Below, one piece after another: positions 34,856 to 39,045 of a DNA stretch of 64,000 nt. The stretch lies in assembly GCF_006547145.1 (NCBI RefSeq), contig NZ_CP041244.1, positions 2,108,001 through 2,172,000 on the forward strand, given 5' to 3'. The first letter of the stretch is position 1; the number at the start of each line of letters is the position of its first letter. Origin of the DNA: Actinomadura sp. WMMA1423. GTDB lineage: Bacteria > Actinomycetota > Actinomycetes > Streptosporangiales > Streptosporangiaceae. The notes under the pieces were generated by a model. The model did not search any database. It was not told the origin of the DNA and worked only from the letters and a program-made list of their open reading frames with translations. The translations under genes and the position numbers were made by a program.

Positions 34856-35914
34856 GTGGCCAAAGATCTCATCGGGGCACCGGCGCAGCGGCCTGGCCGC
34901 AGGGCAGGCTCTGCGGGCCGAGGCGTCTCCCGGCGCCTGGCGGCCGTCGCCGGCCTGACCGTGACGGTCTCCCTGACCTGCTCCCCGGTGGTGGCGCACG
35001 CCGAGCCCAAACCGACCCGGGCGCAGGCTCAGAAGACGCTCGACAAGCTCAACGAGAAGATGGACCAGAAGGTCGAGCAGTTCAACCAGAACCGCGAGAA
35101 GCTCAAGGTCGCCAAGAAGAAGTTCGACGCCGCGACCAGGGCGAGCAAGCAGGAGCAGGCCAGCTTCGAGGAGCAGCGGTCCAAGATCGCCCAGATGGCG
35201 GCGACCGCCTACAAGAACGGTGACTCGACCGACGTCACCGGCTTCGTCGGCAGCAACGACCCGCAGTCGATCCTCGACCAGGCGGCCGTCTTCTCGCACC
35301 TGTCACAGGAGCGCAGCTCCCAGCTCACCCAGTTCCTCGCGACGGCCCAGCGGCTCCGCCGCGAGCAGTCCCAGGCGAAGACCGCCTACGACGAGGTGAA
35401 GTCGAAGCAGAACGAGCTGAAGAAGCAGAAGCAGGAGCTGGACAAGCAGGTCCAGAAGCAGAAGTCGCTCGTGCGGCGGCTCGGCGGGGGCACGAACTCC
35501 GGCGGCGGCGGCGGCAACGGGCGCGGCGGCACCGGCGGCACCTACAACGGCCCGGCCAGCGGGTCGGCCCGCAAGGCGCTCGACTTCGCCTACGCCCAGC
35601 TCGGCAAGCCGTACTCCTACGGCGCCACGGGCCCGGGCACCTACGACTGCTCCGGCCTGACCATGAAGTCCTGGGGCGCCGCGGGCGTGGGCATCACCCG
35701 CACCACCAACACCCAGTACGCCGCGACGAAGCGGGTGGACAAGAGCAACCTGCAGCCGGGCGACCTGGTGTTCTTCAGCAACCTCGGCCACGTCGGCATG
35801 TACGTGGGCGGCGGCAAGATGATCCACGCTCCGAGCACCGGCGACGTCGTCAAGATCAGCGACATCACCTCCGGCTACTACCTGAGCAACTACTACGGCG
35901 CCGGGCGCCCCTGA
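34856..35914 (+). CDS. Secreted NlpC/P60 peptidoglycan hydrolase with coiled-coil domain
   Basis: 352 aa. Signal peptide (RRLAAVAGLTVTVSLTCSPVVAHAEP), then a long coiled coil (about residues 55-205, rich in Lys/Gln), a Gly-rich linker and a C-terminal NlpC/P60 domain. Catalytic triad: Cys in YDCSGL, His in LGHVGMYVG, and His in MIHAPSTGD. It cleaves stem peptides, probably the D-Glu to diamino acid bond, as in the RipA group. The coiled coil may hold the enzyme inactive until partner binding. GTG at 34856. Rv2190c is the positional equivalent, from memory. An intrinsic terminator follows. Confidence 0.93.
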   Translation: MAKDLIGAPAQRPGRRAGSAGRGVSRRLAAVAGLTVTVSLTCSPVVAHAEPKPTRAQAQKTLDKLNEKMDQKVEQFNQNREKLKVAKKKFDAATRASKQEQASFEEQRSKIAQMAATAYKNGDSTDVTGFVGSNDPQSILDQAAVFSHLSQERSSQLTQFLATAQRLRREQSQAKTAYDEVKSKQNELKKQKQELDKQVQKQKSLVRRLGGGTNSGGGGGNGRGGTGGTYNGPASGSARKALDFAYAQLGKPYSYGATGPGTYDCSGLTMKSWGAAGVGITRTTNTQYAATKRVDKSNLQPGDLVFFSNLGHVGMYVGGGKMIHAPSTGDVVKISDITSGYYLSNYYGAGRP

Positions 35915-35963
35915 CGCGGCGCCCTGACACCCCCGCCGCGCGGGTGTGACAGAGCCCTCACCG

Positions 35964-36003
35964 ACAACGGACCAGGCTTGACCTGGTCCGTTGTTGATTT
36001 TGT
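35964..36003 (+). terminator. Intrinsic terminator after the NlpC/P60 gene
   Basis: ACAACGGACCAGG (35964-35976) pairs perfectly with CCTGGTCCGTTGT (35982-35994), loop CTTGA, followed by TGATTTTGTG. A 13-bp stem with a T-rich tail, the clearest rho-independent terminator in the window. Confidence 0.9.
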
Positions 36004-36420
36004 GGGGGTTTGCCTTCTCTTGGGGCTTTGGTACCTTGTCACCACTCACGGCGCCCTCCAGACGCCGTGGCCCCAGGGCGCCCCCCAGGCGCCCCGGTCC
36101 CACGCGGCGCATCCAGCACCCGCGTGACGGCGGCGCGATCCACGCGTCGCTCCCCCAGGACGGCGCGCCCCACGTGCCGTCCCGCGGCGCCCGAAGGCGC
36201 CGCACGGTCTCGACGCAGACCGGGCCGACCCCGCCCACCGTGCGCACGCCCGCAGCGTGCATGGCGCTGAGAGCGCTGCCGCGGTGAACCGCGCGGGGCA
36301 GGCCCCGGACGGCCCCCGGAGACGGGCCGCCGTCCGCGCACAACATCAGGCGCCGCTCGTTCGCACGCGGGAGACAGGTCCCGCGCCGGGCCCCATATCG
36401 CCCCCAGGATCGCAGCGGCA
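36004..36420. other. Gene-free stretch upstream of the riboswitches
   Basis: About 400 bases between the terminator and the first riboswitch. Open frames on both strands are Gly/Pro/Arg-rich and have no ribosome site, so no gene is called. It must hold the promoter for the riboswitch transcript; CATATC near 36391 and CCATAT near 36454 are weak -10 candidates, neither convincing. Confidence 0.5.
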
Positions 36421-36606
36421 GCGCCGAATCCGCCCGAACGCGGAACCGGGGACCCATATCCGCCGGAGTCCGGAGAGTCTTCTCCGGACGGGCATTCCGG
36501 CACCGGGGTGAATCGGCGCGTCTCTCCCGAAGTTCCGGTGAGAGCCGCCGTAGGGCCACTTCCACGCCCGAACCCGTCAGCTAACCCGGTAGGCGTCTGG
36601 AAGAGA
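36421..36606 (+). ncRNA. c-di-AMP riboswitch (ydaO/yuaA type), copy 1
   Basis: The conserved blocks of the ydaO family appear in order: GCCGAATCCG, GGAACCGGGGACCCA, GGGGTGAATCGGC, GTAGGGC and CCCGAACCCGTCAGCTAACC followed by CGGTAGGCG. Between the second and third blocks is an extra hairpin, GTCCGGAGA and TCTCCGGAC around GTCT, absent from copy 2. A GAAGGAG follows at 36605-36611 but no usable start codon is spaced for it. Instead a 12-bp hairpin (36632-36660) follows. The aptamer binds cyclic di-AMP and in actinobacteria usually lowers expression of wall-hydrolase genes. Confidence 0.88.
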
Positions 36607-36631
36607 AGGAGTGAATCCCGCAGCGGTACCT

Positions 36632-36660
36632 GGGGCGTGGCCGCCACCCGGCCACGCCCC
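36632..36660 (+). terminator. Hairpin after riboswitch copy 1
   Basis: GGGGCGTGGCCG (36632-36643) pairs perfectly with CGGCCACGCCCC (36649-36660), loop CCACC. Its place 26 bases after the aptamer fits a terminator-type expression platform, although no U tract follows. Confidence 0.55.
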
Positions 36661-36739
36661 GGACCCCCTGTGCTCCGCGGGCGCCCCCGCCCGCCGAGCT
36701 CCCCCATCCGAACCGGCGTGCCCGCCCCCGGGCACGTCA

Positions 36740-36899
36740 CCGCCGAGTCCGCGCACCGCCGTGCCCCGCACGGTCGGCCGACGCGGAGCCGGGGACCCAC
36801 TGTGTCCTTTTCGGGGTGAATCGGCCTGCCTCCGCGCGGCCGTAGGGCGGCTTCCACGCCCGAACCCGTCAGCTAACCCGGTAGGCGGCATGGAAGGAG
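36740..36899 (+). ncRNA. c-di-AMP riboswitch (ydaO/yuaA type), copy 2
   Basis: The same blocks recur: GCCGAGTCCG, GGAGCCGGGGACCCA, GGGGTGAATCGGC, GTAGGGC and the 37-base core from CTTCCACGCC to GGTAGGCG (36851-36887), identical to 36559-36595 in copy 1. The loop between blocks two and three is short here. The aptamer ends only 4 bases before GGAAGGAG (36892-36899), the ribosome site of the CHAP gene, whose GTG is 7 bases further. Ligand binding could therefore act on translation as well as transcription. Confidence 0.9.
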
Positions 36900-36906
36900 A
36901 ACCCCC

Positions 36907-37737
36907 GTGCCCCGTGCACACCGCAAGAAATCCCATGGCAAGCACCGCAGGCCGCGCTCCCTGGCCGTCACGTGGCGGACCACCGGCGGCGTCGTCGTCG
37001 GCGCCGCCGTGCTCGGCACCGCGGCCGCGACCGCGCAGGCGTCGGTCCTGCCCTTCGGTCCCGCCCCGGTGAGGTCCGCCGCCGCGGCCGACCTCGCCCC
37101 CGGCCTGACGGCGCCCGGCGCACCGTCCAGCCGCCCGTCCGGGCACAAGCCCGCGAGCGCCGCCCCGAAGGCCCCGAAGAGGGAGCGGTCCGCGCGGCCG
37201 TCGCCCAGGGCCACCGGTGAGCCGTCCGGCGAGGCGGCCGCGAAGTCGCGGCCCACCGCCGCGCAGGCCATCAGGCTCGCCCGCTCGCAGGTGGGGATCG
37301 AGGAGGACGGCGCCGGCGAGACCAAGTTCCAGGAGTGGTACATGTCCACGTCCCGCGCGCGGGAGACGCTCGCGCGCGACGGCGGCTCCCTCGACGGCTA
37401 CAGCGACGCGAACTGGTGCGACATGTTCGTCTCCTGGGTCGGCGAGCAGATCGGCTTCGGCGACCAGATCGGCAGCGACGCCTGGACGATCGCGCACGCC
37501 CGCTGGTTCGCCGAGCACGGACGCTGGGGCACCGAGCCGAGGCCCGGCGCGATCGTCTTCTACGCGTGGGACGGCGGCAAGTCCTTCGACGACATCCAGC
37601 ACGTCGGCATGGTCGTCGAGGAGATCGACGACGGCACGATCGAGGCCGTCGAGGGCAACACCGACAACGCCGTCCGCGTAAAGGAACGTTCCAAAGACAG
37701 TGTCGTCGGCTACGGCTACCCGGACTACCGGTCGTGA
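36907..37737 (+). CDS. Secreted CHAP-domain peptidoglycan hydrolase under riboswitch control
   Basis: 276 aa. A basic start and hydrophobic segment (GGVVVGAAVLGTAAATAQA) form a signal peptide, followed by a Pro/Ala/Lys linker and a CHAP domain from about residue 115. Catalytic Cys lies in ANWCDMFVSWVG, His in QHVGMVVEEI, and the following acid/Asn in VEGNTDN. CHAP enzymes cut peptide or amide bonds in peptidoglycan. GTG at 36907 follows GGAAGGAG by 7 bases. Directly downstream of two c-di-AMP riboswitches, matching the known role of that signal in wall homeostasis. Confidence 0.9.
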   Translation: MPRAHRKKSHGKHRRPRSLAVTWRTTGGVVVGAAVLGTAAATAQASVLPFGPAPVRSAAAADLAPGLTAPGAPSSRPSGHKPASAAPKAPKRERSARPSPRATGEPSGEAAAKSRPTAAQAIRLARSQVGIEEDGAGETKFQEWYMSTSRARETLARDGGSLDGYSDANWCDMFVSWVGEQIGFGDQIGSDAWTIAHARWFAEHGRWGTEPRPGAIVFYAWDGGKSFDDIQHVGMVVEEIDDGTIEAVEGNTDNAVRVKERSKDSVVGYGYPDYRS

Positions 37738-37776
37738 TGCCGTCTCCCTCGCCGCTCCCTGCATAGGATCGCGCCC

Positions 37777-39045
37777 ATGGAGGAAGGCCCCGGGCAGGAC
37801 GCCCCCGTGACGCGGCGCAAGGTCCTCGCCCTGGGCGCGGGCGGGGCCGCCGTCCTGCTCGCCGGGGGCGCGGGCCTGGCCGGCTCGCGCTCCGGCGGCG
37901 GGACGGCCGGCGCGGGCGCGCCCGGCGGGCCCACCGCCCGCGTCGCCGGGACGTTCAGCCCGGAGTCGGCAGCCGCCGTCCTCGCCAACCGCGCCCGCGC
38001 CGTCCGCGACGGCGACCGCACGGCGTTCCTCGCCACCGTGGGCGACGCGCCCGCCGCCTTCCAGGACGCCCACACCCTCATGTTCGACAACCTGCGGAAG
38101 CTTCCCCTGGAGGGCTGGAGGGAGCGCGTCGCCGGCACCGAGGCCATGGACGGCGGCAGCGCCGTCGTCCGGGTCGAGGTGCGCTACAGGCTGCGCGGCT
38201 TCGACAGGAGCGACGTGGCCCGCACCCGCTACCTCACGCTGGCCCCGCGGGGCGGGACGTGGACGATCGTCGGCGACGGGACCGCCCGCGGCCTCACCGA
38301 CGACGCCGACATCTGGGACAGCGGCCCCCTGACGGTGGTCAGGGGCCGCGCCGGGCTCGTCATCGGCGACGGAACCGGCCTCGCCCGCATCGCCGAGCGG
38401 CTGGACGCGGCCGTCCCGGTCGTCACCTCCGTGGTCGGCAAGGGGTGGGCGCAGCGGGTCGTCGCGCTCGTCCCCGCCGACGCCTCCCTCGCCTCCGCGC
38501 TCGCCGGCCCCGGGCAGAGCCTCGGCCAGATCGCCGCGCTCGCCACCATCGCCCCCGGGGACGGCCGCGGCGAGGACCGCGTCATCATCTCCCCCGGCAC
38601 CTTCGGGCGCCTCAACGAGCTCGGCCGCAACGTGGTCCTCACGCACGAGCTGACCCACGTCGCCACCGGCGGCGCCCGCGACCGGCGCACCCCGCTGTGG
38701 CTGATCGAGGGCTTCGCGGACTACGTCGGCTACCGGCGCGTCAAGATCAGCACGCGGTCGGCGGCGGGCGAGCTGCGCCGCGAGGTCTCCGCCGGGCGGG
38801 CGCCGTCCGCGCTCCCCGCCGCCGCCGCGTTCGCCGGCGGCTCCCCCCGCCTCTCCCAGTCCTACCAGGAGGCCTGGCTCGCCTGCCGGATGGTCGCCGA
38901 CCGGTACGGTGAGGCGGCGCTCGTCCGGCTCTACCGGGCCGCCGGGCGCGCCCCGGAGGCCGCGGCGCTGCGCGACGTGCTGGGCCTCACGCGGGAACGC
39001 TTCACCGCACTTTGGCGCGACTACGTGAAAGAGGAGCTCGCATGA
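37777..39045 (+). CDS. Secreted zinc metalloprotease (HEXXH, gluzincin type)
   Basis: 422 aa. A twin-arginine-like signal (TRRKVLALGAGGAAVLLAGGAGLAG) suggests Tat export. Residues 60-180 resemble a small NTF2-like domain. The protease domain has HELTH in VVLTHELTHVATGG and the third ligand Glu in LIEGFADYVGY, 20-odd residues later, then a helical C-terminus. ATG at 37777 lies 7 bases below TAGGAT, so probably leaderless. Its stop overlaps the next gene by 4 bases, pairing a secreted with a membrane protease. Substrate unknown. Confidence 0.87.
   Translation: MEEGPGQDAPVTRRKVLALGAGGAAVLLAGGAGLAGSRSGGGTAGAGAPGGPTARVAGTFSPESAAAVLANRARAVRDGDRTAFLATVGDAPAAFQDAHTLMFDNLRKLPLEGWRERVAGTEAMDGGSAVVRVEVRYRLRGFDRSDVARTRYLTLAPRGGTWTIVGDGTARGLTDDADIWDSGPLTVVRGRAGLVIGDGTGLARIAERLDAAVPVVTSVVGKGWAQRVVALVPADASLASALAGPGQSLGQIAALATIAPGDGRGEDRVIISPGTFGRLNELGRNVVLTHELTHVATGGARDRRTPLWLIEGFADYVGYRRVKISTRSAAGELRREVSAGRAPSALPAAAAFAGGSPRLSQSYQEAWLACRMVADRYGEAALVRLYRAAGRAPEAAALRDVLGLTRERFTALWRDYVKEELA

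Follow-up and report, generated by a model that had tools for sequence, protein, structure and literature searches.

A tandem pair of c-di-AMP riboswitches before an Actinomadura wall-hydrolase gene, possibly formed by loss of the gene between them

In the chromosome of Actinomadura sp. WMMA1423, a gene encoding a CHAP-domain wall hydrolase is preceded by two riboswitch aptamers of the c-di-AMP-binding ydaO type, with nothing between them in the list of open reading frames beyond purely mechanical ORFs. How might such a pair have come about and, if the first sensor once had a gene of its own, why has it been kept now that this gene is gone? We approached these questions by comparing a 64-kb stretch of the chromosome (the window) with related genomes. 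The explanation that we favour, with slightly more confidence than doubt, is that this is a true tandem pair that arose by deletion of an intervening gene, and that its two members would now switch off the hydrolase in two successive stages.

Two aptamers before one hydrolase gene

Infernal cmscan of the entire 64-kb window found two matches to Rfam family RF00379, each spanning model positions 1-134 and each well above the gathering score of 38 bits: copy 1 at 36412-36610 (78.7 bits, E 1.3e-16) and copy 2 at 36766-36901 (71.7 bits, E 1.1e-14). No other family reached its gathering score in the window. The whole genome of 9.53 Mb contains eight RF00379 matches, so that two on the same strand within 490 bp are not the work of chance; it also encodes a diadenylate cyclase domain (E 7.6e-26).

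The two copies share a 52-nt direct repeat (36544-36595 and 36836-36887, 94% identity, spacing 292) that includes a 37-base identical core, and the core is equally identical when compared between genomes. In both copies the loop sequence CTTCCA can pair with a tail sequence TGGAAG (36559-36564 with 36598-36603 in copy 1, 36851-36856 with 36891-36896 in copy 2), a loop-tail pseudoknot being part of the known c-di-AMP aptamer fold. Across 124 distinct loop/tail pairs the longest loop-tail helix averages 5.99 bp, against 5.22 bp when the tails are re-dealt among the loops (sd 0.08, maximum 5.45), a comparison that ignores kinship among the sequences. The Rfam start of copy 2 has probably slipped because of the long loop of the stem that follows. 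Its 5' end is better placed at about 36740, where CCGCC (36740-36744) pairs perfectly with GGCGG (36884-36888) to form P1; the sequence GCCGA(G/A)TCC, sought at this position, is present in all 18 aligned genomes, the window's included, 25 bases ahead of the Rfam start.

Much of this anatomy had been read from the letters alone in an earlier note, and it holds up: two segments, not one, score as ydaO aptamers, the spacing and identical core of the repeat are as described, copy 1 does carry an extra hairpin (at about 36468-36489), its GAAGGAG is followed by no usable start codon, the 12-bp hairpin beyond it is perfect and the downstream gene does encode a CHAP-domain protein. Coordinates are collected in Table 1.

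Table 1. Features of the locus, in window coordinates
Feature	Position	Strand	Basis
NlpC/P60 hydrolase gene (gene A), constant neighbour of the locus	34856..35914	+	Pfam NLPC_P60, E 1.9e-26
TTTGCC-N17-TACCTT, candidate promoter of the leader and copy 1	36009..36037	+	Candidate, from sequence
Structured leader, a row of hairpins 5' of copy 1	36041..36411	+	Fold and alignment
Copy 1 aptamer (ydaO) with extra hairpin	36421..36603	+	RF00379, 78.7 bits
GAAGGAG, probable relic of the ribosome site of a lost NlpC/P60 gene	36605..36611	+	Relatives
12-bp hairpin, probable inherited terminator	36632..36660	+	Arms 36632-36643/36649-36660, perfect
Hairpin immediately 5' of copy 2	36715..36738	+	Fold; hairpin seen there in relatives by eye
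Copy 2 aptamer (ydaO)	36740..36896	+	RF00379, 71.7 bits; 5' boundary from relatives
GGAAGGAG, ribosome site of the CHAP gene	36892..36899	+	Overlaps copy 2 pseudoknot strand 36891-36896
CHAP-domain wall hydrolase gene, GTG start	36907..37737	+	Pfam CHAP, E 1.2e-10
TAGGAT, candidate -10 element for leaderless transcription of the next gene	37764..37769	+	Candidate, from sequence

The tail strand of copy 2 overlaps GGAAGGAG, and ligand binding should therefore hide the ribosome site of the CHAP gene; copy 2, at least on paper, can act in this way. In the aligned relatives additional bases separate the pseudoknot strand from GGAG, so the two overlap more closely in the window.

Upstream, the TTTGCC-N17-TACCTT sequence is found, allowing up to three substitutions, in 61 of the 63 loci of the genus (a raw count of occurrences at any position in the locus); the two exceptions are G001, which has no aptamer, and G011. 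A sigma-70 scan did not flag the candidate at 36009..36037. The leader that follows is strongly structured (fold z -5.4) and conserved across a 24-genome alignment, with a predicted consensus of 78 pairs, 12 of which show two-sided changes in at least one sequence. It consists, over its 370 bases, of short hairpins with CCA in several of the loops. A cmscan of 35900-36920 at E up to 10 placed the leader in no Rfam family; apart from RF00379, its four matches all fell far short of their cut-offs. Pieces of the leader recur before another c-di-AMP switch locus in two genomes, G006 and G058 (L144, L145).

No clear promoter is found ahead of copy 2. A block 5' of it, CCATCCGAACCGG (36704-36716), is mostly conserved in 18 near relatives and may belong to a promoter of the CHAP gene. 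The gene beyond CHAP (37777-39045) has a Pfam BSP match below the cut-off, and TAGGAT lies seven bases ahead of its ATG, as in leaderless genes; TAGGAT-N-ATG is present in 32 of the 34 genomes that have this gene in the fetched locus.

Relatives with and without a gene between the aptamers

The locus was surveyed in 65 genomes of the genus, including the window's own, the first search drawing on genomes among the matches listed. An orthologue of the upstream NlpC/P60 gene was taken as present in 63; G013 and G023 gave distant matches only, lie outside the 63 loci and may have the pair elsewhere in the genome. Scanning the 63 loci for aptamers (cmscan) and genes (tblastn) revealed several states. 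Two aptamers with no gene between them occur in 36, with a core spacing ranging from 287 to 515. In ten, a short NlpC/P60 gene (gene B; E 9.9e-23 for the NlpC/P60 domain in L093) lies between the aptamers, although in G064 only copy 1 scores above the cut-off. Twelve have one aptamer: in 11 of them it is copy 1 or a fusion, and in G055 it is a copy-2-like aptamer before CHAP. One (G001) has none, and in four the contig is too short, copy 1 still being visible in G049 and G050.

Looking outwards from the hydrolase itself, relatives of the CHAP protein are encoded at 13 named loci. Six of these are from Actinomadura, the closest at 84% identity, and all four that have sufficient upstream sequence carry both aptamers; L040, with 206 bases upstream, has one and L043, with 12, has none. 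The other seven, from Microbispora, Sphaerimonospora and Sphaerisporangium, each have one aptamer before CHAP, and none of the seven shows the window's neighbour genes in the flanks fetched (up to 3 kb). A search for gene B at family level, across 120 genomes, gave 30 loci, of which 20 were scanned for RF00379 (L186-L195 were left out). Seven of these loci of other genera (L166-L171, L173) have the order aptamer, gene B, aptamer, CHAP. The remaining 13 have a single aptamer before a gene-B-like NlpC/P60 gene, with no CHAP match and no second aptamer in 1.5-kb flanks.

To read direction from these states, a tree of the upstream protein was built from 62 genus rows (G044 was too short and was left out) and rooted on L166-L171 and L173. 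Genus genomes with gene B fall on several early branches. The window's own clade comprises 42 rows (SH-aLRT 95) and gene B is seen in none of them, three of the 42 contigs being too short; in a concatenated, midpoint-rooted tree the clade has 43 rows and support 99. The best tree has four changes of gene B presence, of which the starred branches force one, with SH-aLRT as the sole measure of support. We therefore conclude, with moderate support, that the ancestor carried gene B, that the window's clade lost it in a single event and that other lineages probably lost it as well. The best match to gene B anywhere in the window's genome is 49% identical, so the gene has not simply moved.

Leftovers of the lost gene can be followed through the relatives. 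In nine of the ten gene-B genomes the tail of copy 1 runs into GGAG-N-CTGTCC, the likely start of gene B, and a CTG after the copy 1 GGAG persists in 18 of the 36 gene-less pairs, where the frame stays open for 21-68 codons. Gene B itself appears to start at CTG in L093 (L093:1000-1035) and other gene-B loci; in the loci of other genera the start is CTG or TTG, with TTG in three loci of genus g50. The window represents a further step: the CTG remnant has been deleted too and GAAGGAG stands alone. Since relatives have gene B between the two switches, with the same GAAGGAG ahead of its CTG/TTG start, the GAAGGAG after copy 1 is probably the lost gene's ribosome site and the 12-bp hairpin its terminator.

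The case for the hairpin as the terminator of gene B comes from its resemblance to hairpins that follow gene B in relatives (L096 and L143, for example), and it too is graded as probable. The hairpin is present in all 37 clade genomes examined by pattern search (fused and cut-off genomes were left out). Across 32 distinct rows 99.5% of cells are paired, four of the 12 pairs show two-sided changes, and none of 500 shuffles reached the covariation score. It lies 36-39 nt past the aptamer core in 22 of the 37 genomes and 65-194 nt past it in the other 15. In the window just two of the next 12 bases are T, with no T run, and a terminator scan of the window did not flag it.

An earlier suggestion that the pair was a duplication that had lost its first gene is thus half upheld. 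The loss is supported by gene B in the genus and beyond it, but duplication is doubtful: the two units look to have been brought together and not copied in place, because aptamer/gene-B-like loci exist without CHAP (13 of 20) and single-aptamer CHAP loci exist without the window's neighbours (seven of seven).

Retention and possible output of copy 1

On the reading that we favour, the ancestral order would have been gene A, promoter, leader, copy 1, gene B, terminator, copy 2, CHAP, and once gene B was lost the promoter, leader and copy 1 would have come to stand directly before the terminator, copy 2 and CHAP, the promoter being a guess from sequence. RNA polymerase would start near 36040. 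At high c-di-AMP, copy 1 would fold and the transcript would stop at the inherited hairpin; in any transcripts that read through, the ligand-stabilised pseudoknot strand UGGAAG of copy 2 would cover GGAAGGAG and block translation. Both stages would be off at high c-di-AMP, giving jointly a tighter off state for the hydrolase. As far as anatomy goes such a two-stage switch is plausible, and termination at the downstream hairpin is the natural output to propose for copy 1.

This part of the earlier note's proposal fares unevenly. Conservation and covariation of the hairpin speak for it; the inherited look of the hairpin speaks against it, as does the absence of an antiterminator beyond chance. 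The best duplexes between copy 1 and the 5' arm of the hairpin range from -24.2 to -30.8 kcal/mol in 18 genomes, and in all 18 they are weaker than the mean for shuffled arms (mean z +0.82, range +0.20 to +1.58). In gene-B genomes the same test gave z from -1.48 to +0.31 (eight of ten testable). An 8-bp match between aptamer and hairpin arm, CCACGCCC:GGGCGTGG, recurs in most of the duplexes predicted for the 18 genomes. We rejected it as an antiterminator: it is broken on the aptamer side by CCTCGCCC in six genomes (G029, G053, G047, G043, G057, G034) and on the arm side by GGGCGCGG in seven (G030, G031, G035, G037, G056, G060, G002). An inherited hairpin may stop transcription regardless of ligand. 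Two further points weigh against the two-stage reading: a separate promoter before copy 2 is possible, and the pair is dispensable, copy 2 having gone from seven clade genomes and the copies having fused in two.

The same genomes bear on whether copy 1 is maintained. It is found in all 41 reachable genomes of the window's 43-row clade (30 pairs, nine singles, and G049 and G050). Seven of the singles have lost copy 2 and keep copy 1 (G006, G058, G014, G057, G034, G059, G021), and the other two, G048 and G009, have one fused aptamer comprising the 5' half of copy 1 and the 3' half of copy 2 (L073:1958-2165, L078:1896-2110). Recombination between the two identical cores would give just such aptamers. 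Across 18 of the clade's 30 pairs, those with core spacing 287-310, copies 1 and 2 have mean pairwise identities of 0.880 and 0.882, the leader 0.857 and the spacer 0.797; coding sequence gives 0.883 at the end of the upstream gene and 0.718 at the start of CHAP. Copy 1 is no better conserved than the first of these two coding stretches.

Among the other explanations, the one that survives best is that promoter, leader, copy 1 and hairpin make up a self-contained, c-di-AMP-binding non-coding RNA, with CHAP having a promoter to itself and copy 2 as its sole control. We regard this as possible, though a good deal short of likely. Its main support is a set of six genomes in three lineages (G057/G034, G059/G021, G061/G018) that lack gene B, copy 2 and CHAP at the locus. 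In all six the copy 1 core is exact, the promoter-like sequence and the hairpin remain (the hairpin of G061 and G018 being identified by eye) and the next gene has its TAGGAT-N-ATG. Within the window's clade copy 1 has changed more slowly than fourfold sites in one orphan pair (11/189 against 51/463, one-sided p 0.025) and in the other (6/186 against 55/456, one-sided p 0.00017), and the four window-clade orphans carry 3-6 T in the 12 bases past the hairpin. The conserved, strongly structured leader and the failure to find an antiterminator beyond chance also fit. On the other side, little time may have passed since the losses: in G057/G034 identity over the 108 aligned bases that follow copy 1 (92.6%) is close to that of copy 1 itself (94.2%). 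Orphan copy 1 scores low in G061 (51.7 bits) and G018 (45.4 bits), there is no clear promoter before copy 2 in the window, and the orphan genomes were examined at this locus only.

Because six genomes keep copy 1 although no evident target gene is left to it, a broader version of the free-standing c-di-AMP RNA is also allowed, in which the riboswitch has outlived its gene and a unit of promoter, leader, aptamer and terminator is kept across the clade as a c-di-AMP-responsive RNA in its own right. This we put forward tentatively, as unlikely on present evidence. If true, the same unit would serve in some genomes as the leading member of a tandem switch and in others without any gene at all.

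Might copy 1 instead be a useless remnant whose decay is still to come? Its gene has gone and its ribosome site lacks a start codon, but the clade-wide presence of copy 1 described above, extending to the two genomes where it forms half of a fused aptamer, its identity close to that of copy 2 and above that of the spacer, and its retention in the seven genomes without copy 2 make this improbable. The earlier note had allowed that relatives might reveal a decayed first copy; by these comparisons copy 1 is no decaying remnant.

Less probable again is that the aptamers cooperate as a unit that takes up four c-di-AMP molecules and has a single output at the ribosome site, as PMC9481103 suggests for doublets without a strong terminator between them. 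Both aptamers are intact and on one strand, and no T run follows the hairpin in the window; a strong, conserved hairpin nevertheless separates them, and the core spacing varies from pair to pair over the range given above. Least credible of all is a local duplication of a single riboswitch before CHAP with later insertion of gene B in some lineages, for although the 37-base core is identical in the two copies it is just as identical between genomes, half of the gene-less pairs keep a remnant of the gene B start, and most scanned loci of other genera have an aptamer and gene-B-like gene without CHAP.

Known tandem and single switches

The earlier note had called a tandem pair unusual, which is true, but it is not new: PMC9481103 reports 77 tandem c-di-AMP riboswitch doublets, most of them with a terminator between the aptamers. 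Like these, the window's pair places two c-di-AMP aptamers in one leader with no gene between them. As far as the doublets are described there, the window's pair differs in that an origin by gene loss can be read from relatives, in that its hairpin lacks a T run and in that its last copy lies on the ribosome site. The tandem c-di-AMP architecture is therefore already known; the history of this pair is new. In the literature searched, mainly open papers, we found no account of the locus, of a tandem riboswitch originating by loss of an intervening gene, or of a c-di-AMP riboswitch retained without its gene in this group, and no word beginning 'gene loss', 'deletion' or 'operon' appears in the main text of PMC9481103.

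Either stage of the proposed switch has a counterpart among single ydaO switches. In PMC10117811 and PMC9960051, the rpfA switch of Streptomyces coelicolor is described as turning expression off by termination, without a canonical terminator, and the nlpC switch of C. glutamicum as acting on translation. RNA class and kind of target gene are common to these and to the window, but rpfA and nlpC each have one switch per gene, whereas the window may have both stages in one leader. A parallel in layout is the SAM-II/SAM-V tandem presented in PMC9481103 as a bi-mechanism arrangement, in which the first switch stands before a terminator, as is probable for the window too, and the second over the ribosome site, as in the window; there the two aptamers are of different classes, while the window's are of one class and their two-stage action is conjectural.

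Riboswitches also occur as part of non-coding RNAs, Rli55 and EutX being examples. The likeness extends to the alternative reading of copy 1 as a non-coding RNA, and there without a known target.

Tandem riboswitches have mostly been discussed for the computation they might perform and less for their origin. PMC9481103 argues that a tandem arrangement which brings no added value should be lost. Relatives of the window preserve a whole series of states, from two switch-gene units through a pair with a leftover start codon, a clean pair and a fused aptamer to an orphan, and this natural series lends itself to testing whether an additional sensor makes the response steeper or simply does no harm.

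The window's genome has six other c-di-AMP switches. Two of these (L001, L005) lie before NlpC/P60 genes and a third (L007) before a second CHAP gene, and each of the three is single.
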